DNA from: Collinsella sp. TM09-10AT
GTDB taxonomy: Bacteria > Actinomycetota > Coriobacteriia > Coriobacteriales > Coriobacteriaceae
NCBI RefSeq assembly: GCF_003436275.1
Contig: NZ_QSOP01000010.1
Location: 1 to 15,946, forward strand
Reading direction: 5' to 3'
Length of the DNA: 15,946 bases
The position numbers and the translations under genes are program-made. Under the pieces are notes generated by a model. That model had not been told where the DNA came from and ran no database searches. It saw only the letters and a list, made by a program, of their open reading frames with translations. This document shows positions 1 through 15,946 of this stretch, one piece after another (the first letter of the stretch is position 1; the number at the start of each line of letters is the position of its first letter).

Positions 1-40
1 GGCCGTGTTCCGCTATGCGGTTGTCAATTTGCGAAAGAAA

Positions 41-220
41 TTATGCGTCACCCCCCAGAAACGCCCCATCCATCGAGAGCCATTCGCCCTCCGCATAATA
101 TTTCTCAGGAATGACCGTCCGGTTCCCGTTAACGACGCTCGCCCTCATGCCCGCAAGGCCAGTAACAGCACAGCCGAAAAGCGCAAGCGCCGACCTTCTT
201 GTCCACAGGGTCTTCTTCAT
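41..220 (-). CDS. Small exported or membrane-anchored peptide, possibly truncated
   Basis: I do not recognise this as a named family. Read from the ATG at 220 it is 59 residues. A GTG three codons upstream (229-227) overlaps the stop of the ATPase gene as GTGA and would give 62. The N-terminus (MKKTLWTRRSALALFG) has positive charges, an RR pair and then a hydrophobic stretch to about residue 24. That is signal-peptide-like and weakly Tat-like. After it come only about 35 polar residues (including VIPEKYYAEGEW), ending in GGDA and TAA. The same frame stays open from this TAA to the window edge (13 more codons), so the gene may be a shortened relative of a longer exported protein. Its position as last gene of the exporter operon suggests an accessory or immunity-type surface protein; that is inference. 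Translational coupling to the ATPase is likely because of the overlap or near-overlap. Confidence 0.5.
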   Translation of the reverse strand: MKKTLWTRRSALALFGCAVTGLAGMRASVVNGNRTVIPEKYYAEGEWLSMDGAFLGGDA

Positions 221-225
221 CGCGC

Positions 226-870
226 TCACGACCTTTCCCGAACGTTCACAACGGCACCGTCGCGCATGCAGTAAACCCGATCGGCCAGCTCCTCGAGCAC
301 CTCTCCGTCATGGCTGGACAGAATAACCTCGCGACCCGTTGATGCCGCCATCGCCACAACGCGCTTGAGCATTTCCACGCCCGCTTCGTCGAGGGCATTT
401 GTTGGCTCATCGAGAACAAGCAGCTTCGGCTTTTCCATAATTGCCGCAGCTATCCCCAGACGCTGCTTCATCCCAAGCGAGTATGCTCGGAACTTCTTTT
501 TTTCGTCTGCATCGAGCCCCACGAGCCGCAGGGCAGAGCGAATGTCCTCGCGGGTTGCAACGCCCTTGATCTGAGCAATGAGCTCCAGATTGTCGCAGCC
601 AGACAGATATCCCAAAAAGGAAGGCGCCTCGATCAACATCCCCAGACTCGGCGGGAACGAGATGTCCGCCCCAAGCCTTTGGCCATCGATAGAGATTTCG
701 CCTTCGGTAGGCTTGATCAATCCGCAGACCGCTCGCATAAGCATGGTCTTACCCGAACCGTTTATCCCCTGAAGACCGACCACAGTCCCAGGGTCAACCT
801 CGATGGACACGTTGCGCAGAACATCGTTTTTGCCTATGCGCTTCGATACGTCCCTAACGATCACGCTCAT
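226..870 (-). CDS. ABC transporter ATP-binding protein, LanF/BcrA-like
   Basis: This is a 214-residue ATPase that powers the two membrane subunits encoded just upstream. Visible motifs are Walker A GINGSGKT (35-42), signature YSLGMKQRL (130-138), Walker B LLVLDEP ending at D154-E155, D-loop NALD (158-161) and switch His187. At the Q-loop position the sequence is MLIEAPSF, so Glu81 replaces the usual Gln. This 'E-loop' is known from LanF ATPases of lantibiotic immunity transporters, and the SLGMKQRL signature is typical of the same and bacitracin-type families. The start at 870 was chosen over an upstream in-frame start at 1209 because the extension lies inside the permease gene and has no domain, while ATG 870 has AAGGGGG just upstream and overlaps the permease stop as ATGA. 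The substrate is not visible; a cationic or lantibiotic-like peptide is the family-based guess. Confidence 0.9.
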   Translation of the reverse strand: MSVIVRDVSKRIGKNDVLRNVSIEVDPGTVVGLQGINGSGKTMLMRAVCGLIKPTEGEISIDGQRLGADISFPPSLGMLIEAPSFLGYLSGCDNLELIAQIKGVATREDIRSALRLVGLDADEKKKFRAYSLGMKQRLGIAAAIMEKPKLLVLDEPTNALDEAGVEMLKRVVAMAASTGREVILSSHDGEVLEELADRVYCMRDGAVVNVRERS

Positions 871-1703
871 ATCTTGTCCCCCTTTTCTAAAAGGTCTGCC
901 CTTCGAAACCACAGTCCGCCCAGCGATAGGCATAACGACATAATCACAATTGAAAACAAGACGCTCGAGCCCGTCGCGATTCCCTCTTTGACAATTCCGC
1001 CCCAGCGCAACAGCATCAGGGCATTTCCCAGCAGCACCCAATGCCGCGCATATGCCGAGCAGATCAGGGAGCTCATTAAAACCACAAACGAGACCGACGG
1101 CCCAAGCACAAACCCGACCGCTGCCTGCGCAAACGCAAGCGCCTCGAAAGCAAGAAAGAGTCCTACGAAAAACGGCAGCGCATCTGCCTCGGCAGCTTTG
1201 AGAAACCACGGCGCCAAATTAGCCAGCTGAAGCGACTCGCCATGGACGACCGCGCTGAACGAGGAGCTCACCACCAAGCTCCAAATCACAACAGAGCAAA
1301 CCACCACGAGCAGTGAAAATGCCGTTACCGCCGCCACCAAGATAAAACGCGAGACCCACCAAAGGGTTCTTGACCGGCATCGAACAAGCGCTTGCAAACC
1401 AAACCCGTGCAACGATTCGGTCGGATAATCGAGTGTTGTATAGAGAATGAGCAGAATGAGGAATAGCCACCCTAACGGAGGCACAAACATGGCCCCGGGC
1501 CTAGGCTCAAACGGAGCAGACCCGGCAAACACGAGCGCGAGATTATCCGCAAACCCCAAGGTATCCGTCCTGACCCCATACACAGAAGACAATCCGTAGG
1601 CGTACACCAAGTTCGCAACGGTCACTGCCGCAACCGCAATAAAAGCGATGATGTTCTTCTTCAAAACGGTCCTCAGGTCCGCGGCGACCAGCCTAAACAG
1701 CAT
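867..1703 (-). CDS. ABC-2-type transporter membrane subunit (LanE/G-like)
   Basis: This 278-residue membrane protein has about six hydrophobic segments (roughly 19-37, 75-90, 115-145, 175-197, 200-222 and 245-265). It starts with a short amphipathic cytoplasmic stretch (MLFRLVAADLRTVLKKN), as in LanE/LanG and BcrB permeases. It should pair with the neighbouring 293-residue subunit to form the membrane channel driven by the ATPase at 226-870. Its start ATG (1703-1701) shares one base with the upstream permease stop (TGATG). GAGGTGG sits four bases before it. Its TGA overlaps the ATPase start (ATGA), so all three are probably translated in a coupled way and in balanced amounts. The last residues (RRADLLEKGDKI) form a short charged cytoplasmic tail. 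Assignment is by topology, size and operon context rather than a sequence signature. Confidence 0.8.
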   Translation of the reverse strand: MLFRLVAADLRTVLKKNIIAFIAVAAVTVANLVYAYGLSSVYGVRTDTLGFADNLALVFAGSAPFEPRPGAMFVPPLGWLFLILLILYTTLDYPTESLHGFGLQALVRCRSRTLWWVSRFILVAAVTAFSLLVVVCSVVIWSLVVSSSFSAVVHGESLQLANLAPWFLKAAEADALPFFVGLFLAFEALAFAQAAVGFVLGPSVSFVVLMSSLICSAYARHWVLLGNALMLLRWGGIVKEGIATGSSVLFSIVIMSLCLSLGGLWFRRADLLEKGDKI

Positions 1704-2584
1704 CAGACCACCTCGCGTCTTTTTAAGAATCTCGCGGAAACCAAAGAAAAGACGAACAGCAAGATGATTTCCGCAACCCCCGCTCGGATGTCGGGCCAGT
1801 TATTTAGCGATTCCGACCTGATGCTGTTAAGAATGTTGCAGTTAAAGCCGACGCATGAAAGGACGCTAAAAATCCAGTCGTTAACAAAATGCCATGCAAC
1901 CATAATCAGATATGGAACGACCATCGCCTTGATTCTGCTGCGAAACACAACCGACAGACCGGTCACGGCCATGGATAGAACCCCCAGCGCCACCGCATCG
2001 AACAGCGTATAAACCAGCACGTATAACAGAGGCCGGGAATAAAACAGACCAGAAAAATAGCTATGCAGATAGAGTCCGACGTAAGTCGATTCGTCGACCC
2101 GGGGGAGATACGCGGGAAACAGCATGGAGACAATCAGGAAGTTCACGAGTAGCGGAATAGCCGTGACCGCAAACGCAGAGAGGAAAGCAGACAGCATCTT
2201 CACGTTCACGTATGCATTTCTAGAAACACGCGTGCAGATCTGTGCCTCGTAACCGCTCAAACGCTCGGACAGGCATGACCACGACCCGGCCAACATGGCA
2301 AGCAACGGCAGCGCATAGAAAAACACCGACGCTAGCAACGGCGCGTTCGCGCTCACGACAATCCAGTTGCCAAAGCTACTTTCACGCGTTTGGCCGAGGT
2401 ATGTCTGAGACTGCAGACCAATGCCGTAGCCAAAAGATAACAGCTGCTTGCGCTCAATCTCGAGCGTCCACCACGCCTCGATGGCAGCTGCCATCGAAAT
2501 TACTGTCGCCAAAGTAAGAGCCAACGCAAATATTGGGTTTCCAGATATCTTGGACAACTCGTGCCGAATTAGTTTTTTATTCAA
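1703..2584 (-). CDS. ABC-2-type transporter membrane subunit, first gene of the exporter operon
   Basis: This is a 293-residue polytopic protein with hydrophobic segments near residues 18-36, 88-105, 129-156, 185-211, 215-236 and 270-286. A sizeable loop of about 50 residues after the first segment is probably extracellular. Length, topology and the opening MNKKLIRHELSKISGNP fit ABC-2 membrane subunits of the lantibiotic or bacitracin exporter type. The start is a TTG (2584-2582). GGGAGGGTG lies upstream, and the nearer ATG and GTG codons in the leader run into a stop after a few codons, so TTG is the best choice. It is the first of the overlapping set permease, permease, ATPase, small peptide. 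The leader immediately before its ribosome-binding site folds into a strong hairpin (2604-2635), so expression may be controlled there. Confidence 0.8.
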   Translation of the reverse strand: MNKKLIRHELSKISGNPIFALALTLATVISMAAAIEAWWTLEIERKQLLSFGYGIGLQSQTYLGQTRESSFGNWIVVSANAPLLASVFFYALPLLAMLAGSWSCLSERLSGYEAQICTRVSRNAYVNVKMLSAFLSAFAVTAIPLLVNFLIVSMLFPAYLPRVDESTYVGLYLHSYFSGLFYSRPLLYVLVYTLFDAVALGVLSMAVTGLSVVFRSRIKAMVVPYLIMVAWHFVNDWIFSVLSCVGFNCNILNSIRSESLNNWPDIRAGVAEIILLFVFSLVSARFLKRREVV

Positions 2585-2603
2585 CCGACATCACCCTCCC
2601 ATT

Positions 2604-2635
2604 GGCCGGACCGAGCAACAACGCTCGACCCGGCC
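2604..2635 (-). promoter_or_regulatory. Strong hairpin in the exporter operon leader
   Basis: Two 13-base arms (2604-2616 and 2623-2635) flank a six-base loop. On the minus-strand transcript the arms GGCCGGGTCGAGC and GCTCGGTCCGGCC pair completely, with two G-U wobbles. On the plus strand the same two positions are A-C mismatches, so the structure suits RNA made in the operon direction. It ends three bases before the GGGAGG ribosome-binding site of the first permease. No U-tract follows, so it is not a standard intrinsic terminator. It could protect the mRNA end, affect initiation or be an operator; the role is inference. Confidence 0.6.
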
Positions 2636-2700
2636 CTAATCACAAGCGGTTAATAATGCGTCGACACACGGCAACCTTTGCATGAATAGAGAATGATGTC

Positions 2701-2741
2701 TGTAAACACTCGCTATTGAGTTGATCGCTCAGGCGTTTACA
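2701..2741. promoter_or_regulatory. Inverted repeat between the LuxR-type gene and the exporter genes
   Basis: TGTAAAC (2701-2707) and its exact complement GTTTACA (2735-2741) are separated by 27 bases. Partial complementarity continues inwards. One arm covers the stop codon of the regulator gene. The other gives, on the minus strand, TTTACA, which resembles a -35 box for the exporter operon. I could not find a convincing -10 at the right distance. A LuxR-type operator or a weak terminator stem (no U-tract) are both possible. Confidence 0.35.
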
Positions 2742-4872
2742 CGTTATCTACCTGCGATAACAATGAAATAAGCTCCGCTTTATTCTTGATCTTCAACTGG
2801 CGGTAAGAAGCAGACCGCAGTGCTTGCACCGTAGATGCAGCGTAACCGACATCCTCCGCAATAGCCTTTGTCGTTGCGCCCTCCGCCGTCATCAGCAAAA
2901 TTTGCGACTGAACATCAGAAAGGGAGCGCGACGTAAGCAGGGCCAGCTGGCGCACGCGGGCCGTTTCGGTGGACCCGTTCGCCCGGTACTCCAAGACGGC
3001 CTTCTCGTCCTCAACCGAGCGGGCGAGCGCGATGTGCGTAACGAACATGGGCACAGACCAGCAAACAATCACCGTTGCCACGACGACATTGACAGCCGAA
3101 CTTTGCCCCAACAACGACGCGAGGAACAACGGCTCGAAAACCGTCAGATCCTGCACCATATTGAGCAAGACAGCCCAAACAGGAGCCGTCGCCCCAAAGC
3201 AGAGCATCCATATCCCAAGCATTTTGCGCTGCGGACAGCTTCGCATCACTATATATGTGAGCAGCACCCCCGTCAGCACCGCAAGTCCATGGATTCGCCC
3301 CCTAGCGACCGCATAGATTAAGGCAACCATGCCCATTGACACCAACGGCACGATAGCCCGAGCATGGGCATGCACCTTAAACGGACGCAGCCCAACAGCG
3401 AGCGAAGCCGTAGACGCCACGCCGCAAAACAGGACCGGCACATCCATCAACGGAACGCGTATGCACATCAATGCTGCGATATAGATAAAAGACCAGTCCA
3501 CAGCAGATAGCACCGCCCATACGTACGGGCTTCCGAGCCAAATCGCTTCACCCGCTCTATCCAGCGCAGCGCCACGATTCGCTTTTCCACCCGCGTAGCG
3601 TAGCGACAGAAGCAGTCCGAGACCCAATGCGTAGCTTAAGAGGGAAAAGGCGACAGCCCGCGAAACACCGGACCCCCAATCGCTATCCGCCATTACCAAG
3701 GGCCCCGCCGCAAGGAGGATAAAGAATAATGTGAGCAGGTATCGAAACAGCCGGCGCGTTCGAGCTGATGCCACTATATCGTCAGCATGCCGCTGCGGTA
3801 GCTCATGCCCTACAGTATCGCCCTCACCCGCAAACAGCGCCACGAGCTCGCGTGAGCCCGCAACCGACGCCTTCCCGTATGCTCGGTGAAGCGTTGTTCT
3901 CACCGTCGATGGCTTCGTATCCGTCTCCTTGGCAATTTCCGCCGGCGTTTTCCCTTTGAGCAGCAGTCGAACAAACTGCTCTTCTCTAGGCGACAGGGCA
4001 GGGGAAAACACCCCCGCATCGAATGTGTCGGACGCACAGGCGATATCCGAATTGTTGTCCCGTTTCCCCCTTAGCAACATGCATACGAAGGCAGCAGCGA
4101 TAACGGACCCCATCGCCAGCAATGCAATGACCACGGCATCGCTTGCGAAGTATGCCGCCTCAACAGCCGGAATAAGACCAATAGGAACTGCTACGAGCAC
4201 AGAACAGGCAAACACGTCGCGCCGCCCATGGCCAAAGGCACGAGGGCGGCAAAACGGCGGGGCCACAGTCAATGCGAGATAGACCAACGGAATTAAAAGC
4301 GCAAGGCCAATTGCCGCGGCCGTTACAGGGGGCATCCCCCATGGCTCGGGAACGACTCTCCATGAAACTCGACAGCAAAACAGCAGGCAAGACATGACGG
4401 CTATTGTTTCTGTAAAAATCGCGTCCTGCGGGTGACGAGTTTCCCTTTCGTCAGTCCGTGTCGACCTCTGCGTCAAAGGAGAGTCCGCCGTGCCCCAAAT
4501 AACATATGAGAGAAGCAGCGATCCAACAAAGCACGAGACACACGAAACGCCATGTAACAACCAAATCGGTGCAAACACGATTGGAATAGAGTCTCCGCGA
4601 GCATAGAAAGCCAGGTCGGCCCATTCGGGAACCGTTGCAATAACACCAAGGAAAACACCGATGGCACCGAGATGCCTCGGCCTTCTCATTCCCCCCTTGC
4701 ATAGCGCAGCACCATGAACAAACGCCGCGAGGCATGCGCCCAGGATAACGAGCCAGGTCATTGCACCTGACGCTAGGCCGATTGAAGATGAAAACCGGTG
4801 ATAAGGGGTGACCGCCATTACGACAAGCGCAATGGCGCAGGCAAATGTAGCAGAACGGCGGGAAAAGAGCAT
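2737..4872 (-). CDS. Membrane-embedded LuxR-type regulator with two HTH domains
   Basis: This is a 711-residue protein made of two similar halves. Each half is a block of roughly eight hydrophobic segments followed by a LuxR/GerE-type helix-turn-helix. The first membrane block spans about 8-267 and its HTH about 291-347 (LSPREEQFV, GKTPAEIAKETDTKPSTVRT). The second block spans about 376-616 and its HTH about 648-707 (LSDVQSQIL, TTKAIAEDVGYAASTVQ). Polytopic membrane LuxR proteins with a single C-terminal HTH are widespread in Coriobacteriia; the double arrangement is unusual. It probably senses a ligand in or outside the membrane and controls the neighbouring exporter operon, which lies downstream on the same strand. 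I chose ATG 4872 because GGAGG precedes it. The alternative ATG at 4893 has no ribosome-binding site and sits in a TATAAT box. Function is inferred from domains and context. Confidence 0.85.
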   Translation of the reverse strand: MLFSRRSATFACAIALVVMAVTPYHRFSSSIGLASGAMTWLVILGACLAAFVHGAALCKGGMRRPRHLGAIGVFLGVIATVPEWADLAFYARGDSIPIVFAPIWLLHGVSCVSCFVGSLLLSYVIWGTADSPLTQRSTRTDERETRHPQDAIFTETIAVMSCLLFCCRVSWRVVPEPWGMPPVTAAAIGLALLIPLVYLALTVAPPFCRPRAFGHGRRDVFACSVLVAVPIGLIPAVEAAYFASDAVVIALLAMGSVIAAAFVCMLLRGKRDNNSDIACASDTFDAGVFSPALSPREEQFVRLLLKGKTPAEIAKETDTKPSTVRTTLHRAYGKASVAGSRELVALFAGEGDTVGHELPQRHADDIVASARTRRLFRYLLTLFFILLAAGPLVMADSDWGSGVSRAVAFSLLSYALGLGLLLSLRYAGGKANRGAALDRAGEAIWLGSPYVWAVLSAVDWSFIYIAALMCIRVPLMDVPVLFCGVASTASLAVGLRPFKVHAHARAIVPLVSMGMVALIYAVARGRIHGLAVLTGVLLTYIVMRSCPQRKMLGIWMLCFGATAPVWAVLLNMVQDLTVFEPLFLASLLGQSSAVNVVVATVIVCWSVPMFVTHIALARSVEDEKAVLEYRANGSTETARVRQLALLTSRSLSDVQSQILLMTAEGATTKAIAEDVGYAASTVQALRSASYRQLKIKNKAELISLLSQVDNV

Positions 4873-4890
4873 ACGGCCTCCATAGCGTGT

Positions 4891-4896
4891 CATTAT
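4891..4896 (-). promoter_or_regulatory. Candidate -10 box for the LuxR-type gene
   Basis: On the minus strand the hexamer is a perfect TATAAT, but no good -35 lies 16-18 bases upstream. A start about seven bases downstream would give a short leader that still contains the GGAGG before ATG 4872. This favours 4872 over the in-frame ATG at 4893, which is formed by the last two bases of the box and the next G. A small palindrome (CGAGC-G-GCTCG) lies just upstream and could be an operator. Confidence 0.4.
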
Positions 4897-5014
4897 ATCG
4901 CTCGAGCCGCTCGTTTATCTCTGTTCTCACACCAGCCAGCATCAATGATTCAGGCGAACTCCAATCCGCGCCAGATCACGGTCCGGCTTTTGTTCGCAGT
5001 CCCCACATCAAAGC

Positions 5015-5152
5015 GGGATGCGGTTTCCTTTTGGACGCCGGTTCGGAAAGCGCATCCCGTTCCAGGGCAATATTCTGGGATGCAGTTTCCGCAGCCCACC
5101 CCATTTGGAAAGCGCATCCCATAATTTGGCTGAAAACTGAGATGCGCTTTCC
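5015..5152. repeat. Five alternating copies of a 14-bp element
   Basis: Copies resembling GGGATGCGCTTTCC occur at 5015-5028 (forward), 5045-5058 (reverse), 5077-5090 (forward), 5107-5120 (reverse) and 5139-5152 (forward). Starts are 30, 32, 30 and 32 bp apart. The two reverse copies are identical; the forward copies differ from the consensus at one or two positions. Copies 1-2 and 3-4 can each form a 14-bp stem with one or two mismatches around 16-base loops. A degenerate half (CGCATCCC) follows near 5190-5197. The array occupies the middle of the roughly 440-bp intergenic region between the divergent regulator and kinase genes. It may be an operator array or an extragenic palindromic element. 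I see nothing else supportable in 4897-5014. Confidence 0.8.
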
Positions 5153-5222
5153 GAACGAGCCGAAACGGGCCGAATCGATCGGGCCACCTCGCATCCCGCT
5201 ATCCTCGCCATCTGCCCGAGCG

Positions 5223-5231
5223 TGCTACACT
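5223..5231 (+). promoter_or_regulatory. Extended -10 promoter for the kinase/cell-wall operon
   Basis: TGCTACACT contains a TGn extension and a TACACT hexamer (four of six matches to TATAAT). No convincing -35 is visible, which is common for extended -10 promoters. A start near 5238 would give a leader of about 75 bases before ATG 5312. Confidence 0.45.
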
Positions 5232-5311
5232 AGCAGCATCTATGCCACCGCGAACGGCTCGGCCCCGCGCCCGCCGCTCGCAAACGAACTTTAAACGCAC
5301 GAGGGTTGGCC

Positions 5312-7165
5312 ATGCCGCTTTTCTCGCAACATACCGCCCGGTTCTCGCCGGACGTTCCTTTGGAGGGCACCAGCTCTCGCGAGCTGCTCAAGCGGTACCA
5401 GCCGCTCGAGACACTTGCGACCGGCGGTTTTGGCTCCATCGAGATTTGCCGCGACACGCACCTGCGCCGCCGCGTCGCCATTAAGCGCATCCCCCTTATC
5501 AACGGTGCCGGCATGCCCGCCAGCGACATCATGGATGTCCTGCGCGAGGCGCACACTGCCGCCATGCTTCAACATCCCAATATCGTGCAGGTCATCGACT
5601 TTACGCATGACACAGCCTATGCCTACCTGGTTATGGAATATGTCGATGGCATGTCGCTGGCCGAGTTTTTGCATCGCGTGGACGGCCACTCACTTACCTT
5701 TGACGAGGCCGCGGCCATTGCCGATGCCCTGGGCCAGGCGCTCACCTTCGCCCACAGTAATGGCGTACTCCACCTGGACATTAAGCCCGCCAACGTGCTC
5801 ATCGACCACTCGGGCAATGTAAAGCTCACCGACTTTGGCATGGCGCGACTGTCGTCCGCCGGTGGCTTTGGCGGCTCGCGCGGCGGCACCATCGGCTACA
5901 TGCCGCCCGAGCAGCTCGATATCGAGACCGGCACGGTCGACGAACGCGCCGATGTCTTTGCCCTTGCCTGCGTTATCTATGAGGGCTTGTGCGGCAGCGC
6001 TCCCTTTATGGCGGCCACGCCCGCCGACTCGCTCGACCGCATCATCGGCGGCGCCACCTATCCCAGCGAGCTGATACCACACTTTCCCCCGGGAGCCGAG
6101 GCCGCGCTCATGAGCGCGCTCTCCCCCATGCCGCAGGACCGCCCCAACAGCATCGAGGCATTTTGCGACCAACTCCTTGCCGGTCTGGGCAGCGTGCGCG
6201 AGGGCCGTCGCAGTCTGGAGCAAATGGTTGGCGAGCTTTCGGATGACGAGCAAGAGCTCGACGATATCGAGCCGTCGTACTACGAGGACGACGCCATCGA
6301 GGTCGACCCCGCGCTCGGCTGGGCGGGCACGCGCTGGAGCCATGCGCGCGACTACACCATGCACGCTATCTCGGCGCTAACGTGCGGCACCTTTAGCTTT
6401 TTGCTGATGCAAACGGCCGGGGTCGCGGCGCTTCCCGGCCTGGTCATTGCGGCAATCGCGATCGGAGCGGCGGCTGGCCTGGCCCCCCAGATTGGCTCGG
6501 CCATCTCGGCTGTGGGCTTTTTGGTGCTCATGGCCAACGCCACCATGCAGGCGCAGGGCATCCTGTCGATGTTGCCCGTCGCGGTGATCTTTGCCGCTGC
6601 CATGTCCGGTTGGTGGATCGCCTGGGGTCGCACCGAGGCTGCCGCGAGCGCCGCACTCACCTGCGCGCTTGCGCTTGGCTGTCTGACCGGCAATACCTTC
6701 CTGGCAGCTGGGGTCGCCGCCGGCGTCGCGTCATTTTGGCTCGGCCCGGCAAGCGCTGCCGCGGCAACGGGCATGGGCGCGCTTTTTGCCCGTCTGGCCA
6801 CGGTCGCGCTTTCAGCCGGAGGCGTGCTGGGGCTCGGCAACGTTGCCGCAGCGCTGGGAGACCCGCTCCTTTGGGCTGCCTTTGCGCTGGTCGCGACAAC
6901 TGCCGCGGCGTCATCTGCGCTGCTCAATGCCCATGCCAAGCGTGCCGATCAGGGCTCAAACCTTGCCGCAATCGCCGCCATCGCTGTCACCGGCATCGGC
7001 TGCGCAGCGGCATCCTGTCTTGCACACCATATGGAAATTGCCAGCCTTGCAGCCGCGGTCGCCGCCAAGGCGGCAGTTGCGGGAACCCTATCCTCTATAA
7101 TCGTTGGGATATGCCTATATTTGCTCGGATACCAAAGAACCTATACGGAGAGTGATCTTTCGTGA
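5312..7165 (+). CDS. Ser/Thr protein kinase with C-terminal polytopic membrane domain
   Basis: This is a 617-residue protein. The N-terminal 290 residues are a Hanks-type kinase: glycine loop ATGGFG (36-41), ATP-binding Lys58, Glu79, catalytic loop HLDIKPAN (Asp156, Lys158, Asn161), DFG (174-176), PPE (198-200), Asp214 and Arg277. The usual HRD arginine is Leu155, so it is a non-RD kinase with catalytic Asp kept. An acidic linker (about 308-332) leads to about eight Ala/Gly-rich membrane segments (about 350-610) of no family I recognise. Residues such as VNPD-type PASTA repeats are absent. The start ATG 5312 has GAGGG six bases upstream; TTG 5306 is in frame but less likely. Its stop overlaps the fhaA start (GTGA). 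As first gene of the cell-wall cluster it may stand in for PknA, passing phosphorylation to the FHA proteins; that is inference. Confidence 0.88.
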   Translation: MPLFSQHTARFSPDVPLEGTSSRELLKRYQPLETLATGGFGSIEICRDTHLRRRVAIKRIPLINGAGMPASDIMDVLREAHTAAMLQHPNIVQVIDFTHDTAYAYLVMEYVDGMSLAEFLHRVDGHSLTFDEAAAIADALGQALTFAHSNGVLHLDIKPANVLIDHSGNVKLTDFGMARLSSAGGFGGSRGGTIGYMPPEQLDIETGTVDERADVFALACVIYEGLCGSAPFMAATPADSLDRIIGGATYPSELIPHFPPGAEAALMSALSPMPQDRPNSIEAFCDQLLAGLGSVREGRRSLEQMVGELSDDEQELDDIEPSYYEDDAIEVDPALGWAGTRWSHARDYTMHAISALTCGTFSFLLMQTAGVAALPGLVIAAIAIGAAAGLAPQIGSAISAVGFLVLMANATMQAQGILSMLPVAVIFAAAMSGWWIAWGRTEAAASAALTCALALGCLTGNTFLAAGVAAGVASFWLGPASAAAATGMGALFARLATVALSAGGVLGLGNVAAALGDPLLWAAFALVATTAAASSALLNAHAKRADQGSNLAAIAAIAVTGIGCAAASCLAHHMEIASLAAAVAAKAAVAGTLSSIIVGICLYLLGYQRTYTESDLS

Positions 7166-8175
7166 ACTTCCTGAACATCTTCGAGGACCACGTGGCCGGC
7201 ATCTTCGGTGCCACCCGTGCCCCGTTCTCCTTTAAGAAGCTTGCCAAGCAGGCCGCTCGCGACATGGAGGATCAGACTCTGGTGATCAATGGCGTCAACA
7301 CGGCGCCGGCACTCTATACCATCCTGATCGCCGCCGACGACGATCCCATGCTCGCCCCGTTCTACCCCGAGCTTTCGCGCGAGGTCCGCGAGTTTGTGAA
7401 GGCGCAGGCCGAAAAGCGCCGTTATGTCTTTGTCGGCGAGCCCCTCGTGCGCTTTATGATCGATCCGCAGCTGCGCGCCAGCAAGTTCTCGGTCTTTGCC
7501 GAGAACGTCGATGCCCCCACGCTCGGCCGCCTGTACGAAGAAGAGCGCGCCTATCAAAACGGTCTGGGCCAAAACAACTCCGCGGCAAGCCGTGCCGCCA
7601 GCGCCCCGCGCGCCGGCCAGCAGCAGTTTGCTGCCCCGCAGCAGCAGCGCCCCGCCGCCATGCCCCAGCAGCAACCGACGCCTCGCGCCGCCGCTCCCGA
7701 CCCGCTTGCCATGGCAGACCCCTTCGCGCCTAGCGTCCCCGACCCCGCCGCCGCACCCATCCCGGTGCCGCAGACCGTCTCGCGCGACGCGCTTGCCGGC
7801 ATGGGCGGAGCCGCCGCGACCGGCGCCGCCGTGGGCCTAGGCGCCGCAGCCGGCATCGCCTCCAACATGGCGAGCACTCGCGCCCCGCAGCGCCCGCTCG
7901 CCCAGCTCGTCGACGTCGTGAGCGGCGAGAGCCATAGCATCACCTCCGCACAGGTGACCATCGGTCGCGAGCGCTCAGTTTCCGACATTGCCCTGCGCGA
8001 CCCCAACGTGTCGCGCCGCCACGCCCAGCTCACCTTTACGGGCTCGGATTGGTCGATCGAGGATCTCAATTCCACCAACGGCACGCTCGTCAACAACCGC
8101 CGCATTACGCGCTGCCCGCTGCGCAACGGCGATCTGCTGACGTTTGGCCTGAGCACCTTTGAATTTAGGGGATAG
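7162..8175 (+). CDS. fhaA: FhaA: DUF3662 and FHA domain phosphothreonine-binding protein
   Basis: This 337-residue protein has three parts. Residues 1 to about 115 match the DUF3662 domain at the N-terminus of actinobacterial FhaA (opening MNFLNIFEDHVAGIFGATRAP in outline). A Gln/Pro/Ala-rich linker covers about 130-245 and includes a Gly/Ala stretch near 210-235. A C-terminal FHA domain spans about 246-334, with the phosphothreonine-binding residues GRE (268-270), SRRH (284-287) and DLNSTNGT (301-308). In mycobacteria FhaA binds phosphorylated partners in the PknB wall-synthesis pathway, including the lipid II flippase partner. No MviN/MurJ homologue is in this window. The GTG start at 7162 overlaps the kinase stop and has GGAGAG upstream. 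It is cytoplasmic, as no signal or TM is present. Confidence 0.92.
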   Translation: MNFLNIFEDHVAGIFGATRAPFSFKKLAKQAARDMEDQTLVINGVNTAPALYTILIAADDDPMLAPFYPELSREVREFVKAQAEKRRYVFVGEPLVRFMIDPQLRASKFSVFAENVDAPTLGRLYEEERAYQNGLGQNNSAASRAASAPRAGQQQFAAPQQQRPAAMPQQQPTPRAAAPDPLAMADPFAPSVPDPAAAPIPVPQTVSRDALAGMGGAAATGAAVGLGAAAGIASNMASTRAPQRPLAQLVDVVSGESHSITSAQVTIGRERSVSDIALRDPNVSRRHAQLTFTGSDWSIEDLNSTNGTLVNNRRITRCPLRNGDLLTFGLSTFEFRG

Positions 8176-8181
8176 TCTCTT

Positions 8182-8598
8182 ATGAACATCGATATCGTCC
8201 TTTTTGCAGGCCGCATCGTCCTGGTCGCCCTGCTCTATATCTTCCTGTTCGCCGTCATGAAGACCGGCGTGGGACTTGTGCGCGGGCAGCGTCGCGACTC
8301 GGCTATCTGGACGATCGATGTGGACAAGGGTCCGCGCGGTATCCGCGGCATCCACGTAGACATGCTCGGCCCCGTCATCGTCGGTCGCTCGCCGTCTTCG
8401 GACATCTGCATCAACGAACCATTCGTCTCGGCCTCGCATGCGCGCTTTTCGCTGCAGGGCCCGGCGCTCATCATCGAGGACCTCAACTCGCTTAACGGCA
8501 CGCTCGTCAACGGCCGCCAGCTTGTGGAGCCCGCAACGCTGCGCGAGGGCGACGAAGTCCAGATTGGCGATGTGGTCATGAAGGTGAACCGTCGATGA
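8182..8598 (+). CDS. fhaB: FhaB: membrane-anchored FHA domain protein
   Basis: This 138-residue protein has one N-terminal membrane segment (about 6-28) and a short linker, then an FHA domain (about 60-136). Binding-site residues are GRS (68-70), SASH (83-86) and DLNSLNGT (100-107). It matches FhaB/FipA, found with fhaA, pstP, rodA and pbpA in many actinobacteria and linked there to coordination of wall synthesis and division through phosphothreonine recognition. It begins six bases after fhaA stops, with a weak AGGGG upstream. Its TGA overlaps the phosphatase ATG (ATGA). Confidence 0.93.
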   Translation: MNIDIVLFAGRIVLVALLYIFLFAVMKTGVGLVRGQRRDSAIWTIDVDKGPRGIRGIHVDMLGPVIVGRSPSSDICINEPFVSASHARFSLQGPALIIEDLNSLNGTLVNGRQLVEPATLREGDEVQIGDVVMKVNRR

Positions 8599-10529
8599 TC
8601 GACGAGGAGAACAAGTCCGCGACTATGACCGAGGCACCGGCTGCCGCCACAGCTGCGGCGGCCCACGCCGCTCCGGCGGGCTCCGCACCCGTGGAACCCG
8701 AGGACACCGTGTTCTCCCTGCCTCTTTCGCATGTAACGCATGATATTTCGGATCTCGCCGATAACGAGGACGAAGAGGATGCCGTAGCGGCGCCCATCGG
8801 CGCACATGCCGCGGAACAGCCCACAGCGCCCGAAGCAACCTCGGCGCCGGCTCACTTTGCAGAGCCTGTCGCCGCGGCAATCAACGAGAGCGCTGCGGTG
8901 TTTGCGGCACCCGAGCCCGCCGCGCCGGCGTTTCCCATAGCCCCGGCATCCGAGGTTGCGCCCGTGTCTACGCCGGCGCCCGAGGCGGGGCCATCCCCCG
9001 AGGACGGCCCTGCACCCAAGGCCCCGCAGCCTGCGCCCGCAAGCGAGTCCGATACCGTGGCCGAGCCCGCCGCCCAGTCGCAAAGCACGCCCGCGCCGTC
9101 GCACTTTGCGACACCCGAGCCTATAGACGTCAGCCCGCAAGACGACGAGTCGACCGCCCGCGCGCCCGAGGAGCCCGGCTCCCCGGACACCGGCGATTCC
9201 GAATCAAACGCCGAGACCGACACCGTCTCTCCCGGTGACACAGCCGAGATCGACGTTGCCGCCGTTGAGACCAAGCTCAAAGACCCCGGCTCGACCATGA
9301 GCTTTGAGCCCCTGACCGAGGAGCGCATCGAGACCGACTCGACCTATGATGCCGGCACCACCACGCAACTCATGTGGGGCGCCCGCTCTGACGTTGGCTG
9401 CGTACGCCCGCACAATGAGGATTCCTACCTGGTGCAGTCGCCGCTCTTTTGCGTATGCGACGGCATGGGCGGTCACGCCGCCGGCGAGGTAGCCTCTTCC
9501 ATTGCCGTCGAGACTATTGCCAAGACGGCCCCGCAGTCCGCCGACGCAGCACGCCTGGCCGCAGCCGTCGAGGCAGCCAACGCCGCCGTAATCGAGGCGG
9601 CCCTGAACGGCCTGGGCAAGCCCGGCATGGGCTGCACAGCCACTTGCGCCTATATCGAAAACGACACGCTCGCCATCGCCCACGTGGGTGACTCTCGCGC
9701 CTACCTGCTCCACGAGGGCACGCTCATCCGCGTGACCCGCGACCACTCCTACGTGGAGGAGCTCGTGGACGCCGGTGAGATTACGGCAGACGAGGCTCGC
9801 GTCCACCCAAACCGCTCGGTCATCACCCGTGCGCTGGGCTCGGACCCCGCCATGTATGCCGACCACTTCACTCTGCATATCGAGGAAGGCGACCGCCTGA
9901 TCCTGTGCTCCGACGGCCTTTCGAGCATGATTCCCGATAGCGATATCGAGAACATCGCCACGCAGTCCTCAACCGCGCAAATCTGCGTCGACAACCTAGT
10001 GGACGCGGCGCTTGCCGCCGGCGGCCACGACAACGTGACCGTAGTAGTCGTTGACCTGGTTGACGATGGCGTTATGCGCGAGGCGCAACGCGTGCGTCGC
10101 CGCAACGTCACCATCGGCGTCGTCTTAGGTCTCGTCTTGGTGCTGGCGGCTGCCATCTGGGCCTACACGGGTGTCACCGGCTCGTACTACCTGGGTACCT
10201 ACCAGGGCAATGTCGCCGTCTGGCGCGGCCTGCCCGGCAAGCCGCTCGGACTCAAGCTCCACTGGCTCGAAAGCGAAACCAGTATCAAGCTGTCCGACCT
10301 GCCCGAAGACACGCAAAACCGGCTCAAGGCGGGCATTCCGCAAACAAGTGTCGACGATGCGCAGGACACGATATCCAAGTACCGCCACCAGATCGACGAG
10401 GAGCAGACCCGCCAGGTGATCGACGCGCAAACGATTCGCGACAACACCGACCAGGGATCGACCTCCGAATCAGATTCCGAGAAAACCGCCGAACAGTCCG
10501 CCGAGGCCGAAGCCTCCGAAAAGAACTAG
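8595..10529 (+). CDS. pstP: PP2C-family Ser/Thr phosphatase, membrane-anchored, with long disordered N-terminus
   Basis: The predicted protein is 644 residues. About 255 residues rich in Ala, Pro, Glu, Ser and Thr come first and are probably disordered. A PP2C domain follows (about 260-490): RPHNED (271-276), DGMGGH (289-294), GDSRAY (365-370), SDG (439-441) and GGHDN (476-480). Asp276, Asp289, Asp440 and Asp479 are the expected metal ligands. One membrane segment lies at about 505-525, followed by about 120 residues outside the cell ending in an acidic Ser/Glu tail. It reverses phosphorylation by the kinases of this cluster, as PstP does in mycobacteria. Mycobacterial PstP has no comparable N-terminal extension, so this one is odd. 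The start ATG 8595 overlaps fhaB and has AAGGTG eight bases upstream. A later ATG at residue 11 is possible. The catalytic core would survive any later start up to residue about 255. Confidence 0.93.
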   Translation: MIDEENKSATMTEAPAAATAAAAHAAPAGSAPVEPEDTVFSLPLSHVTHDISDLADNEDEEDAVAAPIGAHAAEQPTAPEATSAPAHFAEPVAAAINESAAVFAAPEPAAPAFPIAPASEVAPVSTPAPEAGPSPEDGPAPKAPQPAPASESDTVAEPAAQSQSTPAPSHFATPEPIDVSPQDDESTARAPEEPGSPDTGDSESNAETDTVSPGDTAEIDVAAVETKLKDPGSTMSFEPLTEERIETDSTYDAGTTTQLMWGARSDVGCVRPHNEDSYLVQSPLFCVCDGMGGHAAGEVASSIAVETIAKTAPQSADAARLAAAVEAANAAVIEAALNGLGKPGMGCTATCAYIENDTLAIAHVGDSRAYLLHEGTLIRVTRDHSYVEELVDAGEITADEARVHPNRSVITRALGSDPAMYADHFTLHIEEGDRLILCSDGLSSMIPDSDIENIATQSSTAQICVDNLVDAALAAGGHDNVTVVVVDLVDDGVMREAQRVRRRNVTIGVVLGLVLVLAAAIWAYTGVTGSYYLGTYQGNVAVWRGLPGKPLGLKLHWLESETSIKLSDLPEDTQNRLKAGIPQTSVDDAQDTISKYRHQIDEEQTRQVIDAQTIRDNTDQGSTSESDSEKTAEQSAEAEASEKN

Positions 10530-10545
10530 AAAGGGAGTGCCGCTT

Positions 10546-13416
10546 ATGAGTCGCCGCAACACCGAGCTGCTCTTGCTCATCGCCTCGGCGTTCCCCGTCA
10601 TCCTGCTGTATGCGATGTACGTCCTCACCGCGGGCGCTGCCATCTCCTTTGAGACGCTCGCCGTACCGATCGGCCTCTTTGCCGCCTTTGCCGCGGCCCA
10701 CATTGCCGTGCGCATCTTGGCGCCCGGTGCCGACCCCGCCATCCTGCCCATTGTCTTTGTGCTTTCGGGCATCGGCATCACGTTCGTGACGCGTCTCGCC
10801 CCCGCTCTCGCCATCTCACAGCTCATCATCCTGTTTGTCTCGGTGGCCCTGATGGTGGGAACGCTCGCGTTGGTTAAGAACCTCGACGTAGTCATGCGCT
10901 ACAAGTACACCTTTGGCATTATCGGCATCATTCTGTTGATGCTGCCTATCTTTATCGGCACCACGATCTCGGGCTCCAAGCTGTGGATTCGCATCGCGGG
11001 CTTTACCATCCAGCCCGGCGAGTTCGCCAAGGTCTTTATCGTGCTGTTCCTGGCCGGGTACCTGGCCGAGAACCGCGAGCTGCTCTCCATCTCCAACCGC
11101 AAGATCCTGGGCTTTAAGATCCCTCGCCTGCGACTGCTGCTGCCGCTGTTTGCCGTGTGGGGTGTGTGCCTGCTCGTCGTCGTCTTCGAACGCGATCTGG
11201 GTTCGGCCGTGCTGTTCTACACCATCTTCTTGCTGATGCTCTACGTTGCCACGGGACGATTCTCGTATGTCGTTATCGGCCTTGCGCTCTTAGCCGTTGG
11301 AGCCGTGGGCGCCTACAAGTTCCTGTCTCACGTTCAGGTGCGTTTCCAGGTTTGGGTCGATCCGTTTAAGGACGCCCAGGGCCAGGGCTACCAGATCGTC
11401 CAGTCGCTCTTCTCGCTTGCCGATGGCGGTCTGGTCGGTGTTGGTATCGGCAACGGCATGGCCAACAACATCCCTGTCGTCGAGTCCGACTTTATCTTCT
11501 CGGCCATCGGCGAGGAGATGGGCCTTTTGGGCGGCGGCGCCGTGCTCATCCTGTTTATGCTCTTTGCCGTGCGTGGCCTCACCACGGCTGCCCGCGCTAA
11601 ATCCGACCTCGCCGCCTTTAGCGCCACGGGCCTTACGGCCGCCATCAGCTTCCAGGCCTTTTTAATCGTGGGCGGCGTTACCCGCCTGATCCCGCTGACC
11701 GGCGTCACCCTACCCTTTATGAGCCAGGGCGGTTCCTCGCTGCTGGCAAGCTTTATCATCGTCGCGCTCCTGCTGCGCGCCGGTGACGAAGCGACCGGAC
11801 GCGAGGCCGAGCTTACCGGCACCGGCACCATGGCCGCCATCACCGATGATCAGGTCGCATCTGCCGCCGCCCCGACGGGCACGCGCTTTGCCACCTCGTC
11901 TTCCTACGGCAGCGGCAGCCATTCCGTCGGCTCGCGCATGCGCCGTCGCCTGCTCGACACGCCTGAATCCGGTGTGCTCGGCCGCGTTGCGCTCGCCAAC
12001 CGTCTAACCCGTGCGGTGCTCGCCTTTACGGCGCTGTTCGCCATCCTTATCGGCAACCTCACCTATGTCCAGGTCATCAAGGCCAAGGACTATCAGGACA
12101 TGCCGACCAACAACCACACTATCGCCCGCTCCAAGTACATCCAGCGCGGTTCCATCATCACGTCCGACGGCGTGACGCTGGCCGAGTCGCTGCAGCAGGA
12201 GGACGGCACCTACGTACGCTCCTACCCCAACGGCAACCTGGCAGCGCACGTGGTTGGCTACGTGAGCCAGCAGTATGGCACCACCGCCATCGAGAGTGTC
12301 ATGAACGACACGCTCACCGGCTCTAAGGATTACTCCAGCTGGAACAACGCCATCGCGTCGCTCGCGGGCCAGACCCAGCCGGGCAACACCGCCAAGCTCA
12401 CCATCGACTCGCGTATCCAGACGGCGGCCGAGCAGGCGCTCAAGGGCTTTAAGGGCGCTGTAGTGGTCATCGACCCGCGTACCGGTGCGGTGCTCGCATG
12501 CGCCAGCTCGCCCACCTATGACAACACCAACATCGACGCCCTGCTGCAGGCGGGCGGCGGCGAGGACGGCTCCATGTACAATCGCGCCATGGACGCGCTG
12601 TACACGCCGGGCTCCACGTTTAAGGTCGTTACGCTTTCCGCGGCACTCGAGACCGGCACCGCCAGCCTTACCAGCACCTACCAGGCGCCCGGCTCCATGG
12701 ACATCGGCAACGCGCCGGTCACCAACTATGCCAACGAGAGCTACGGCACCATCAGCCTGCAGCAGGCCTTTGCCGTGTCTTCCAACGTCGTCTTTGGCCA
12801 GGTGGCAAACGAAGTTGGCGCAAACACGCTCGTGCAGTTTGCCAACGCCTTTGGCTACGGCCAAAAGCTCGGCCAGGACCTGACCTCCGCGGCCTCCATC
12901 ATGGCCGACCCGTCGCTCATGACCGAGTGGGAGACCGCCTGGGCCGGCGCCGGCCAGCCTGTCGGCATGGACCACACGCCCGGGCCGCAGACCACCGTCA
13001 TGCAAAACGCCGTGATTGCCGCCGCCATCGCTAACAGTGGCGTGGTCATGGACCCGTACTTTGTAGCCCAGGTACTCGCCCCGGACGGAACTGTGGTCAA
13101 GACCACGCAGTCCCGCTCGCTGGGTCAGGCCGTCAGCTCCGCCACGGCCGACCAGGTCAAGCAGGCCATGCTCGCCGTCGTCCAGTCCGGTACCGGAACC
13201 GATGCCCAGGTCCCCGGCGTCAAGGTCGCCGGCAAGACCGGCTCGCCCGAGACCGGCGGCACCAACGTCAACTCGACGTTCGTTGGCTTTGCACCTTACG
13301 ATTCACCCACGGTCGCCATCTCGGTGGCCTTGGAGGATTACGACAAACACGACGTCAAGGCGGCCAAGATTGCCGGCATCGTCCTGACCGCGGCGCTCGC
13401 CGCACAGGGAGCGTGA
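10546..13416 (+). CDS. rodA-pbpA: SEDS glycosyltransferase fused to class B penicillin-binding protein (RodA/FtsW-PBP fusion)
   Basis: One 956-residue reading frame encodes two enzymes usually made as partners. Residues 1 to about 412 are a RodA/FtsW/SpoVE membrane polymerase of about ten segments. It includes FERDLGSA (214-221) and SDFIFSAIGEE (314-324), where Asp315 fits the essential SEDS aspartate. A cytoplasmic linker (about 413-485) follows, then a TM segment (about 486-510) that starts the PBP. The PBP has an N-terminal domain (including IQRGSI) and a transpeptidase with STFK (Ser690, Lys693), SSN (745-747) and KTGS (897-900), all intact. The predicted topology places the transpeptidase outside, as needed. 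It should polymerise lipid II and crosslink the strands. ATG 10546 has AAAGGGAG eight bases upstream; GTG 10537 is in frame but overlaps that site. I see no stop or frameshift at the join. Whether it serves elongation (RodA-PbpA) or division is not certain; gene order favours RodA-PbpA. Confidence 0.95.
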   Translation: MSRRNTELLLLIASAFPVILLYAMYVLTAGAAISFETLAVPIGLFAAFAAAHIAVRILAPGADPAILPIVFVLSGIGITFVTRLAPALAISQLIILFVSVALMVGTLALVKNLDVVMRYKYTFGIIGIILLMLPIFIGTTISGSKLWIRIAGFTIQPGEFAKVFIVLFLAGYLAENRELLSISNRKILGFKIPRLRLLLPLFAVWGVCLLVVVFERDLGSAVLFYTIFLLMLYVATGRFSYVVIGLALLAVGAVGAYKFLSHVQVRFQVWVDPFKDAQGQGYQIVQSLFSLADGGLVGVGIGNGMANNIPVVESDFIFSAIGEEMGLLGGGAVLILFMLFAVRGLTTAARAKSDLAAFSATGLTAAISFQAFLIVGGVTRLIPLTGVTLPFMSQGGSSLLASFIIVALLLRAGDEATGREAELTGTGTMAAITDDQVASAAAPTGTRFATSSSYGSGSHSVGSRMRRRLLDTPESGVLGRVALANRLTRAVLAFTALFAILIGNLTYVQVIKAKDYQDMPTNNHTIARSKYIQRGSIITSDGVTLAESLQQEDGTYVRSYPNGNLAAHVVGYVSQQYGTTAIESVMNDTLTGSKDYSSWNNAIASLAGQTQPGNTAKLTIDSRIQTAAEQALKGFKGAVVVIDPRTGAVLACASSPTYDNTNIDALLQAGGGEDGSMYNRAMDALYTPGSTFKVVTLSAALETGTASLTSTYQAPGSMDIGNAPVTNYANESYGTISLQQAFAVSSNVVFGQVANEVGANTLVQFANAFGYGQKLGQDLTSAASIMADPSLMTEWETAWAGAGQPVGMDHTPGPQTTVMQNAVIAAAIANSGVVMDPYFVAQVLAPDGTVVKTTQSRSLGQAVSSATADQVKQAMLAVVQSGTGTDAQVPGVKVAGKTGSPETGGTNVNSTFVGFAPYDSPTVAISVALEDYDKHDVKAAKIAGIVLTAALAAQGA

Positions 13417-13466
13417 TGCCCATGATTGAATCGGACACCCGAGGCGCGCCGCGGCCGAAGAGTTAG
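13416..13466 (+). CDS. Possible 16-codon leader ORF before pknB
   Basis: An ATG that shares one base with the rodA-pbpA stop (TGATG) opens a frame of 16 codons (MPMIESDTRGAPRPKS) ending at TAG 13464-13466. It may simply be chance, since nothing recognisable is encoded. If translated, it would be coupled to termination of the upstream gene. The rest of the 132-bp gap up to pknB shows no clear promoter or hairpin that I could support. Confidence 0.15.
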   Translation: MPMIESDTRGAPRPKS

Positions 13467-13548
13467 CGGCAACGCGCCACACGGCCCCAGCGGCCATATC
13501 GTAGGTACTGCACACATCGTTGAGCGAATAGTTATGTTAGGAGCAGGA

Positions 13549-15516: not shown

Positions 15517-15568
15517 TCGCCGCCCCACCGCCCATTACGGCTCCCGCCGCAAACATATTCGCTCACAG

Positions 15569-15608
15569 GCGCCCGCTTGCTCCCCCAGCAAGCGGGCGCT
15601 TCGTTTTT
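15569..15608 (+). terminator. Intrinsic terminator of the cell-wall operon
   Basis: A perfect 13-bp stem, GCGCCCGCTTGCT (15569-15581) with its complement at 15587-15599, encloses a five-C loop. It is followed by TTCGTTTTT. This is a textbook Rho-independent terminator placed 53 bases after the pknB stop. The bases between (15517-15568) show nothing else. Confidence 0.93.
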
Positions 15609-15620
15609 GACATGACATGA

Positions 15621-15946
15621 ACCAGAAGAGCCCGGTACCGTGACGGTGTACCGGGCTCGATCAATCTCTGGTGTCCCCGGGCTGATTCGAAAACTCCCCC
15701 GCGGGGAAATTGGTGACGCGGGTGTCGACGGCTCGAACCCTGCCCTTAGACCAGAAGAGCCCGGCACCGTAGCGGTACCGGGCTCGACAAATCTCTGGTG
15801 CCCCCGGGCGGATTCGAAAACTCCCCCCGCGGGGAAATTGGTGACGCGGGTGTCGACGGCTCGAACCATGCCCTTAGACCAGAAGAGCCCGGCACCGTAG
15901 CGGTACCGGGCTCGACAAATCTCTGGTGCCCCCGGGCGGATTCGAA
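15621..15946. repeat. Tandem repeat of 128-129 bp, 2.5 copies, cut by window end
   Basis: Units begin with ACCAGAAGAGCCCGG at 15621, 15750 and 15878, giving periods of 129 and 128 bp. Copies 2 and 3 are nearly identical; copy 1 differs more. Each unit has a GC-rich hairpin. In copy 1 the arms GAGCCCGGTAC (15628-15638) and GTACCGGGCTC (15648-15658) are perfect. In copy 2 the hairpin is at 15757-15785 with one C-A mismatch that becomes a wobble on the minus strand. On the minus strand each full unit also has two stretches resembling tRNA 3' ends, such as TTCGAATCC followed by CCCGGGGGCACCA, but no matching 5' half. The array may be tRNA-derived or a site used by integrating elements. No gene is supported here; the 118-residue minus-strand frame across it is a by-product of the repeat. 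Confidence 0.85.

Follow-up and report, generated by a model that had tools for sequence, protein, structure and literature searches.

Between a LuxR-type regulator gene and a run of cell-wall kinase genes, a 15,946-nucleotide stretch of the Collinsella sp. TM09-10AT genome (contig NZ_QSOP01000010.1, positions 1 to 15,946; its whole length is called the window here) carries an array of five 14-bp elements (Table 1). The cell-wall run starts at about position 5306 and consists, in order, of kinase, FHA, FHA, PP2C, FtsW-PBP and PASTA-kinase genes on the forward strand. The five 14-mers alternate in orientation with start-to-start steps of 30, 32, 30 and 32 bp. When up to three mismatches to the consensus are allowed, the longest strictly alternating 30/32 chain has five units in the window, compared with two units, seen once, among 3000 first-order Markov sequences of window length. 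The coordinates and this null model confirm the original prediction of five alternating 14-bp elements at this spacing; the two reverse copies that it described as identical are so (each is GGGATGCGCTTTCC), and it had also placed the array correctly between a regulator and the wall-kinase operon. We found that the window array is one member of a dispersed family, with arrays of 2-15 units in many intergenic regions.

Table 1. Array units, dyads and adjoining features of the window (positions count from its first base)
Feature	Position	Strand	Remarks
Array unit 1, GGGATGCGGTTTCC	5015..5028	+	Half-site; outer partner, expected 32 bp leftward, is missing; strand pattern of the array +-+-+
Array unit 2, GGGATGCGCTTTCC	5045..5058	-	
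Array unit 3, GGGATGCAGTTTCC	5077..5090	+	
Array unit 4, GGGATGCGCTTTCC	5107..5120	-	
Array unit 5, GAGATGCGCTTTCC	5139..5152	+	
Dyad 1	5045..5090		18-bp outer spacer between reverse unit 2 (5045-5058) and forward unit 3 (5077-5090); array ends show the dyad as the unit
Dyad 2	5107..5152		18-bp outer spacer between reverse unit 4 (5107-5120) and forward unit 5 (5139-5152)
16-bp inner spacer, unit 1 to dyad 1	5029..5044		Inner spacers are weakly constrained
16-bp inner spacer, dyad 1 to dyad 2	5091..5106		Inner spacers are weakly constrained
LuxR-type helix-turn-helix (HTH) protein (GerE + sigma-70 region-4-like HTH)	2737..4893	-	Same accessory block as the array
ABC-transporter genes of the accessory block	226..2584	-	ATPase nearest to NCBIfam lantibiotic-protection ABC ATPases, below the model cut-off
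Right edge of the accessory block	5187		Rightward, the window aligns at 98% to an array-less contig (C10) of genome G003
First gene of the kinase/cell-wall run	5306..7165	+	Present with or without the array

In the genome nearest to the window (G001, which shares 65% of the window's sampled words), the 14-mer was found at 22 places with one mismatch allowed; here and below, places from genome searches are those among the matches listed per genome. Most of them sit in arrays that alternate as in the window and reach up to 15 units. From 38 stretches of four genomes (G001-G004), the window and five orthologous loci, we collected 49 arrays with 308 units (the array regions read came from G001-G004, G067/G019, G069 and one contig of G003). 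This set, and the gene gaps described below, include orthologous loci, and the counts are thus not independent. Outer steps, from a reverse unit to the next forward one, measured 32 bp in 138 of 142 cases and 31 bp in the other 4, and inner steps 30 bp in 106 of 117 and 29 bp in 11, a spread narrower than the +/-2 bases tolerated by our chaining rule. The regularly phased multi-site DNA signal proposed at the outset is borne out by this spacing, which is maintained over many loci and species.

The distribution of the arrays is near all-or-none and follows the C. aerofaciens group of Collinsella. With one mismatch allowed, the inner pair pattern was present in 22 of 43 Collinsella genomes and in none of 22 genomes from five other genera of the family, and its reversed control pattern had no match in any searched genome. 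Of 396 genomes in the class, 22 have the outer dyad pattern; 21 of these are Collinsella and one (G375) lies elsewhere. Among named genomes, which overlap the 43-genome set (e.g. G071 and G003, G067 and G019, G408 and G004), all 18 of the C. aerofaciens group, defined by a kinase 91-99% identical to that of the window, have arrays (6/6 in one set and 12/12 in another), compared with none of 26 outside the group, including C. stercoris, C. intestinalis, C. tanakaei, C. phocaeensis, Enorma, Atopobium and Olegusella. With stricter filters, a sequence-only model built from the 48 of 72 culled dyads that were traceable to a locus gave 50-113 matches per genome in the 22 carriers (a near-palindromic dyad may be counted on both strands) and one match among 21 non-carriers (G014, E 0.0067), which we treated as chance, with none in the other 20. 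G375 contains two dyads, and these probably represent contamination, a stray contig or transferred DNA, because 434 bp of the DNA flanking one site match a Collinsella contig (L056) at 88% identity. NZ_OY725717.1, a 900-kb C. aerofaciens record that is labeled a plasmid but is probably chromosomal, has four places matching an array query.

The repeating unit is a 46-bp dyad that has polarity, its two half-sites being unlike. Among 47 arrays, 25 have a reverse first unit and a forward last unit and none have the opposite arrangement, and further groups of 13 (four of which represent the window locus) and 9 arrays carry one unpaired unit. Array ends fall between dyads, and we therefore took the outer 46-bp dyad as the unit. 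Each half-site spans about 20 bp (A-D-W-M-Y-GGG-A-YRYR-N-TTTCC), with the centers of GGG and TTTCC 10 bp apart, and usually one half of each dyad is T-type (ATTCY-GGG) and the other A-type (RRAVY-GGG). Counting each distinct spacer once, we found 83 of 112 distinct dyads to be A-type/T-type (52 expected), 22 A/A (37 expected), 2 T/T (18 expected) and 5 of other kinds. Dyad polarity within an array agrees in 76 of 93 pairs, which are not independent of one another, and the oriented consensus reads CGGAAA-N-YRYR-TCCC-R-Y-T-H-Y-GAGSSY-NN-ATTC-Y-GGGA-YRYR-N-TTTCC-G. The heterotypic pattern also shows in positions 17/30 and 18/29 of the outer dyad, which are complementary less often than expected (z -4.2 and -4.7; 66 of 91 inner and 79 of 119 outer segments were kept for pairing statistics after culling near-copies). 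Across the family, the two adjacent bases at the center of the outer dyad are complementary (CG or GC) above the expectation from composition (z 4.0).

Constraint is concentrated in the two boxes. Between species, orthologous arrays differ at 61 of 3847 positions (1.6%) in GGG and TTTCC, at 1532 of 6710 (22.8%) in the spacers, at 501 of 1910 in YRYR and at 2748 of 39217 in the flanks; this comparison required the motif in one genome only, with some selection remaining, and left out high-scoring segment pairs above 99% identity, shorter than 250 bp or with less than 80 bp of flank. In a per-position comparison of 114 ortholog pairs, restricted to units found by the motif in both genomes (12 of 126 pairs above 98.5% identity were left out and 47 of 49 arrays covered), the first Y shows no change except C/T exchanges; the W position, which lies seven bases from the dyad center, is seldom changed and then nearly always by transversion. 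Spacer identity is 0.47-0.58 within arrays, 0.45-0.58 between arrays and 0.46-0.50 in a column-composition null, and close spacer matches are present at orthologous loci. Recent tandem duplication was rejected as the origin of the arrays, since spacers within one array are hardly more alike than those between arrays.

All arrays read are intergenic by gene calls made in this analysis, one set of which missed the LuxR gene of the window and another shortened it. The 41 gaps that hold arrays comprise 17 convergent, 16 tandem and 8 divergent ones, as against 9, 63 and 29 among 101 other gaps of at least 80 bp in the same stretches, a bias toward convergent genes (Fisher test, 1.8e-5). Adjoining genes are mutually unrelated and include those for a Na+/H+ exchanger, a patatin, a flavodoxin, an HAD hydrolase, an SDR protein, thiamine phosphate synthase and a molybdopterin-binding dehydrogenase, as well as rpoB, dnaK, tmRNA and others; with flanking proteins this diverse, a common neighbor gene was rejected. 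The original prediction had staked itself on conserved spacing and on a regulatory association, and only the former held up in orthologous regions, as a regulatory association common to the arrays was not found. Near the tmRNA gene, an array lies 120-545 bp away in all four genomes read (G001-G004; L130, L138, L144 and L148), and copies of a repeat that starts with CCGCGGAGAATCGAACTC make the intervening stretch vary. Other arrays stand 263-274 bp upstream of rpoB in one genome (L142) and of dnaK in three (L128/L136/L156).

The array of the window belongs to an accessory block that includes the ABC-transporter and LuxR genes. Left of position 5187, the window gave no alignment to 40 kb of the G003 contig C10 (blastn, E 1e-20). 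Relative to G003, a 6.3-kb extra block is present on the chromosome of Collinsella sp. TF06-26 (L024; G067), directly after the stop of the gene that precedes the operon at array-less loci, with ABC-transporter genes, the LuxR gene and the array at its right end, and window positions 53-5186 align within it; there is no array at the left end of the window's block. A 30-kb plasmid of C. aerofaciens NBRC 114504 (NZ_CP084005.1; L182) carries the same block at 94.6% over 6055 bp. The stretch that the plasmid shares with TF06-26 stops inside the third 14-mer of the array, and its BLAST match to the window (53-5061) stops at 5061, just ahead of the third 14-mer. The array is present at 5 and absent from 15 of 20 C. 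aerofaciens-group kinase loci; the array-less loci have a different gene that ends immediately before the operon, and the sequence adjoining the operon is conserved irrespective of array presence. Farther along the window, a 959-aa frame (10537-13416) with an FtsW/RodA-type domain (residues 69-417) and a penicillin-binding transpeptidase domain (640-943) forms a SEDS-PBP fusion, and the PASTA kinase is followed at 15621-15946, up to the end of the window, by 2.5 copies of a 128-bp tandem repeat (94% match). In TF06-26, a further 7-unit array lies just past the point matching the window's end (G067:C3:63557-63755).

Several loci have a gene between two arrays in one species and a single in-register array in another. 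These include the gene for a 1362-aa fn3 protein (L134, compared with one array in L150) and that for a 332-aa protein (L153:4585-5583) with no Pfam or NCBIfam match, which lies between arrays in two genomes (L153 and L143) and is replaced by a single array in L133. Compared by eye, the second dyad of L133 resembles the left array of L153 in its left half and the right array in its right half; in G001 (L124), the switch point, also placed by eye, follows the last TTTCC. In-register exchange at the arrays is likely. Gene-content events were seen at 23 of 35 array gaps and 25 of 87 other gaps, but the excess fades once gap length is matched (21 of 32 and 7 of 18 for gaps of at least 250 bp, p 0.08), and at 350 bp or more (16 of 26 and 4 of 6) the difference vanishes. 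At L135:1574-4123, an IS21-type insertion sequence (IS) copy splits an array within a 14-mer, and two IS110-type copies are near but outside arrays (L132 and L156).

Two explanations center on exchange of DNA. One is a nucleoprotein system of the clade, in which a putative protein would read heterotypic polar 46-bp dyads in a 62-bp register and build chromosomal docking platforms for accessory DNA, plasmid-borne blocks among it, to be joined, lost or swapped in register; we regard it as possible but rather doubtful. The other, that the dyads themselves are sites of site-specific recombination or cassette exchange and the arrays landing and exchange points for accessory genes, we consider unlikely. 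Genes between two arrays where a relative has one in-phase array, the apparent hybrid dyad of L133, the excess of events at array gaps before length matching, and an ABC/LuxR block that also occurs on a plasmid and whose shared DNA stops within a 14-mer would all agree with it. However, the switch points differ (mid-dyad in L133, after TTTCC in L124), as expected from ordinary recombination between repeats, some array neighbors are plain IS elements, the left end of the window's block lacks an array, and no dedicated recombinase was identified. The serine recombinase of the plasmid was rejected as a partner of the arrays, since strong matches (E 1e-100 or better) are confined to 6 of 43 genomes and matches of any strength to 27 of 43. 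The same recombinase matches G024:C2 at 100% identity and at identical coordinates, and G024 is therefore probably strain NBRC 114504.

It is improbable that the arrays are a selfish repetitive extragenic palindromic (REP) element, or a REP doublet forming a hairpin (REPIN), moved by a Y1 transposase like the REP-associated tyrosine transposases (RAYTs). According to PMC2817692, REPs and bacterial interspersed mosaic elements (BIMEs) are regularly spaced, alternating intergenic repeats whose unit combines a GT(A/G)G head with an imperfect palindrome. Collinsella arrays share the regular spacing, the intergenic inverted pairs of alternating orientation and the pairing of two unit types, and, like REPINs, they are paired inverted short repeats scattered between genes. 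Y1_Tnp proteins are present in 37 of 43 Collinsella genomes, including all 22 carriers, but they also occur in 15 of 21 non-carriers, and the seven Y1_Tnp loci read (L173-L179) have no dyads, unlike RAYT genes flanked by two inverted copies. The profile of 278 distinct units has no GT(A/G)G head, and a single unit has no palindrome of its own: that of the window folds no better than chance (-1.9 kcal/mol, z -0.96). Units are not near-identical copies, and two units resemble each other little more when they share an array than when they do not. In addition, the boxes are conserved rather than the pairing of stems, the compensatory changes that keep REP palindromes paired were not found among 94 culled dyads (a mild G.U excess is described below), and the arrays are confined to one clade, apart from one doubtful contig. 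On these features the arrays fall outside the REP/BIME definition, although two alternating linker lengths and a preference for 3' ends, known from BIMEs, are further points of resemblance. The original prediction had also considered a mobile extragenic palindrome; the dispersed extragenic distribution agrees with that idea, but the tests made do not support mobility in the REP/RAYT sense.

The preference for convergent gene pairs would fit sites for DNA gyrase or another topoisomerase that relieve supercoils between such genes, as in E. coli BIME-2, although we find this quite improbable. According to PMC6379681, gyrase binds and cuts BIME-2, and its motif has a 10.75-bp GC rhythm. The arrays lack a GC periodicity of about 10.75 bp: 7% of their spectral power lies at 10.33 bp, compared with 18% at 7.75, 15% at 6.2 and 11% at 12.4 bp. 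Array boxes are also far stricter than the degenerate gyrase motif, and relatives without arrays presumably have gyrase as well.

That the arrays act as RNA hairpins (terminator, processing or attenuator elements) is very improbable. As inverted sites are bound to do, the window array gives a good RNA fold whichever strand is taken (z -5.4 and -5.5; single pairs, z -2.9 to -4.9). Among 94 culled dyads, out of 180 distinct ones, none of 2775 column pairs at least 4 apart showed Watson-Crick/G-U covariation (largest z 2.8), and pairing of the arms is within z 2.3 of the prediction from composition. G.U cells exceed C.A cells, with 270 versus 193 on the stored strands of the 49 arrays (nominal p 0.0004, the cells not being independent) and, for the 16 arrays that lie between tandem genes, 100 versus 75 on their coding strand; because C.A mismatches remain common, we read this excess as a weak hint of an RNA-level role. 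Terminator-like sites occur inside 2 of 43 arrays, and within 110 bp on one side of 10 of 43, compared with 23 of 1500 random stretches and 12 of 179 stretches after stops elsewhere. The window had no Rfam match at the gathering score. We therefore set an RNA element aside for lack of covariation, despite the good folding of the window copy; what had been proposed as transcript hairpins keeps the folding and the mild G.U excess and loses the expected covariation. PMC8040213 describes 250 palindromic candidate RNAs, with one Collinsella candidate (HMP2_254) upstream of L7/L12. A motif from that study may overlap with the arrays, of which we found no description in the open-access papers searched.

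The array accompanies the LuxR gene in the window and at the 5 array-bearing kinase loci, but the original prediction's suggestion of a local operator, acting on either that divergent gene or the wall-kinase operon, is hardly credible, because the array is missing from 15 of the 20 orthologous kinase loci instead of being conserved with the operon across relatives, and elsewhere arrays adjoin Na+/H+ exchanger, patatin, flavodoxin, rpoB, dnaK, SDR and other unrelated genes. Two further systems share features with the arrays. CRISPR (clustered regularly interspaced short palindromic repeats) loci likewise have short repeats, fixed spacing and locus-specific spacers, but the repeats described here alternate in orientation and their spacers are partly constrained by the motif. 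Partition and iteron-type operator arrays consist of many phased copies of one protein site. The Collinsella arrays also consist of many phased copies of one predicted protein site, but they lie at many loci per genome, with inverted alternation and no common neighbor gene. A phage origin was also rejected: viral_contigs had no exact match to the 46-mer, and two arrays were without a match in phages.

Our balance of judgment tips slightly toward the arrays being BIME-like rows of double-stranded sites for a putative DNA-binding protein (or pair of proteins) specific to the C. aerofaciens clade, with an architectural or insulating role. One site would be a 46-bp polar dyad, whose two inverted half-sites of about 20 bp would be read mainly at GGG and TTTCC. 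The 10 bp between the centers of these boxes, about one helical turn, suggests contacts on one face of the DNA; with a dyad period of 62 bp, or about six turns, bound proteins would be stacked along the same side. We infer protein binding, cooperativity and an architectural role from this arrangement: stacked proteins could turn intergenic DNA, mostly between convergent or tandem genes, into a nucleoprotein segment that is stiff or wrapped, and the arrays would then work in the manner of BIMEs, as architectural or insulating elements across the chromosome instead of operators of an adjacent operon.

Several points weigh against such protein-bound rows. No binding protein has been identified, and all the evidence is computational. 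The small share of spectral power at 10.33 bp means that there is no classic wrapping signature, and the mild excess of G.U over C.A cells, overall and on coding strands, points weakly toward RNA, which slightly lowered our confidence in this reading and slightly raised that in an RNA role. Some selection remains in the box comparison, and constraint alone does not separate architecture from regulation, recombination or another role. Growth of the arrays is left unexplained by units that are hardly more alike within an array than across arrays, and the two dyads of G375 and the single weak match in G014 blur the limit of the clade.

C. aerofaciens is a common species of the human gut. The array motif is detailed enough to serve as a DNA bait, which opens a direct route to the putative binding protein. 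Such a protein, if it is found, would represent a new DNA-organizing or recombination factor specific to the clade and would help to show the purpose of alternating intergenic arrays such as BIMEs, in this case without a known link to RAYT or gyrase.
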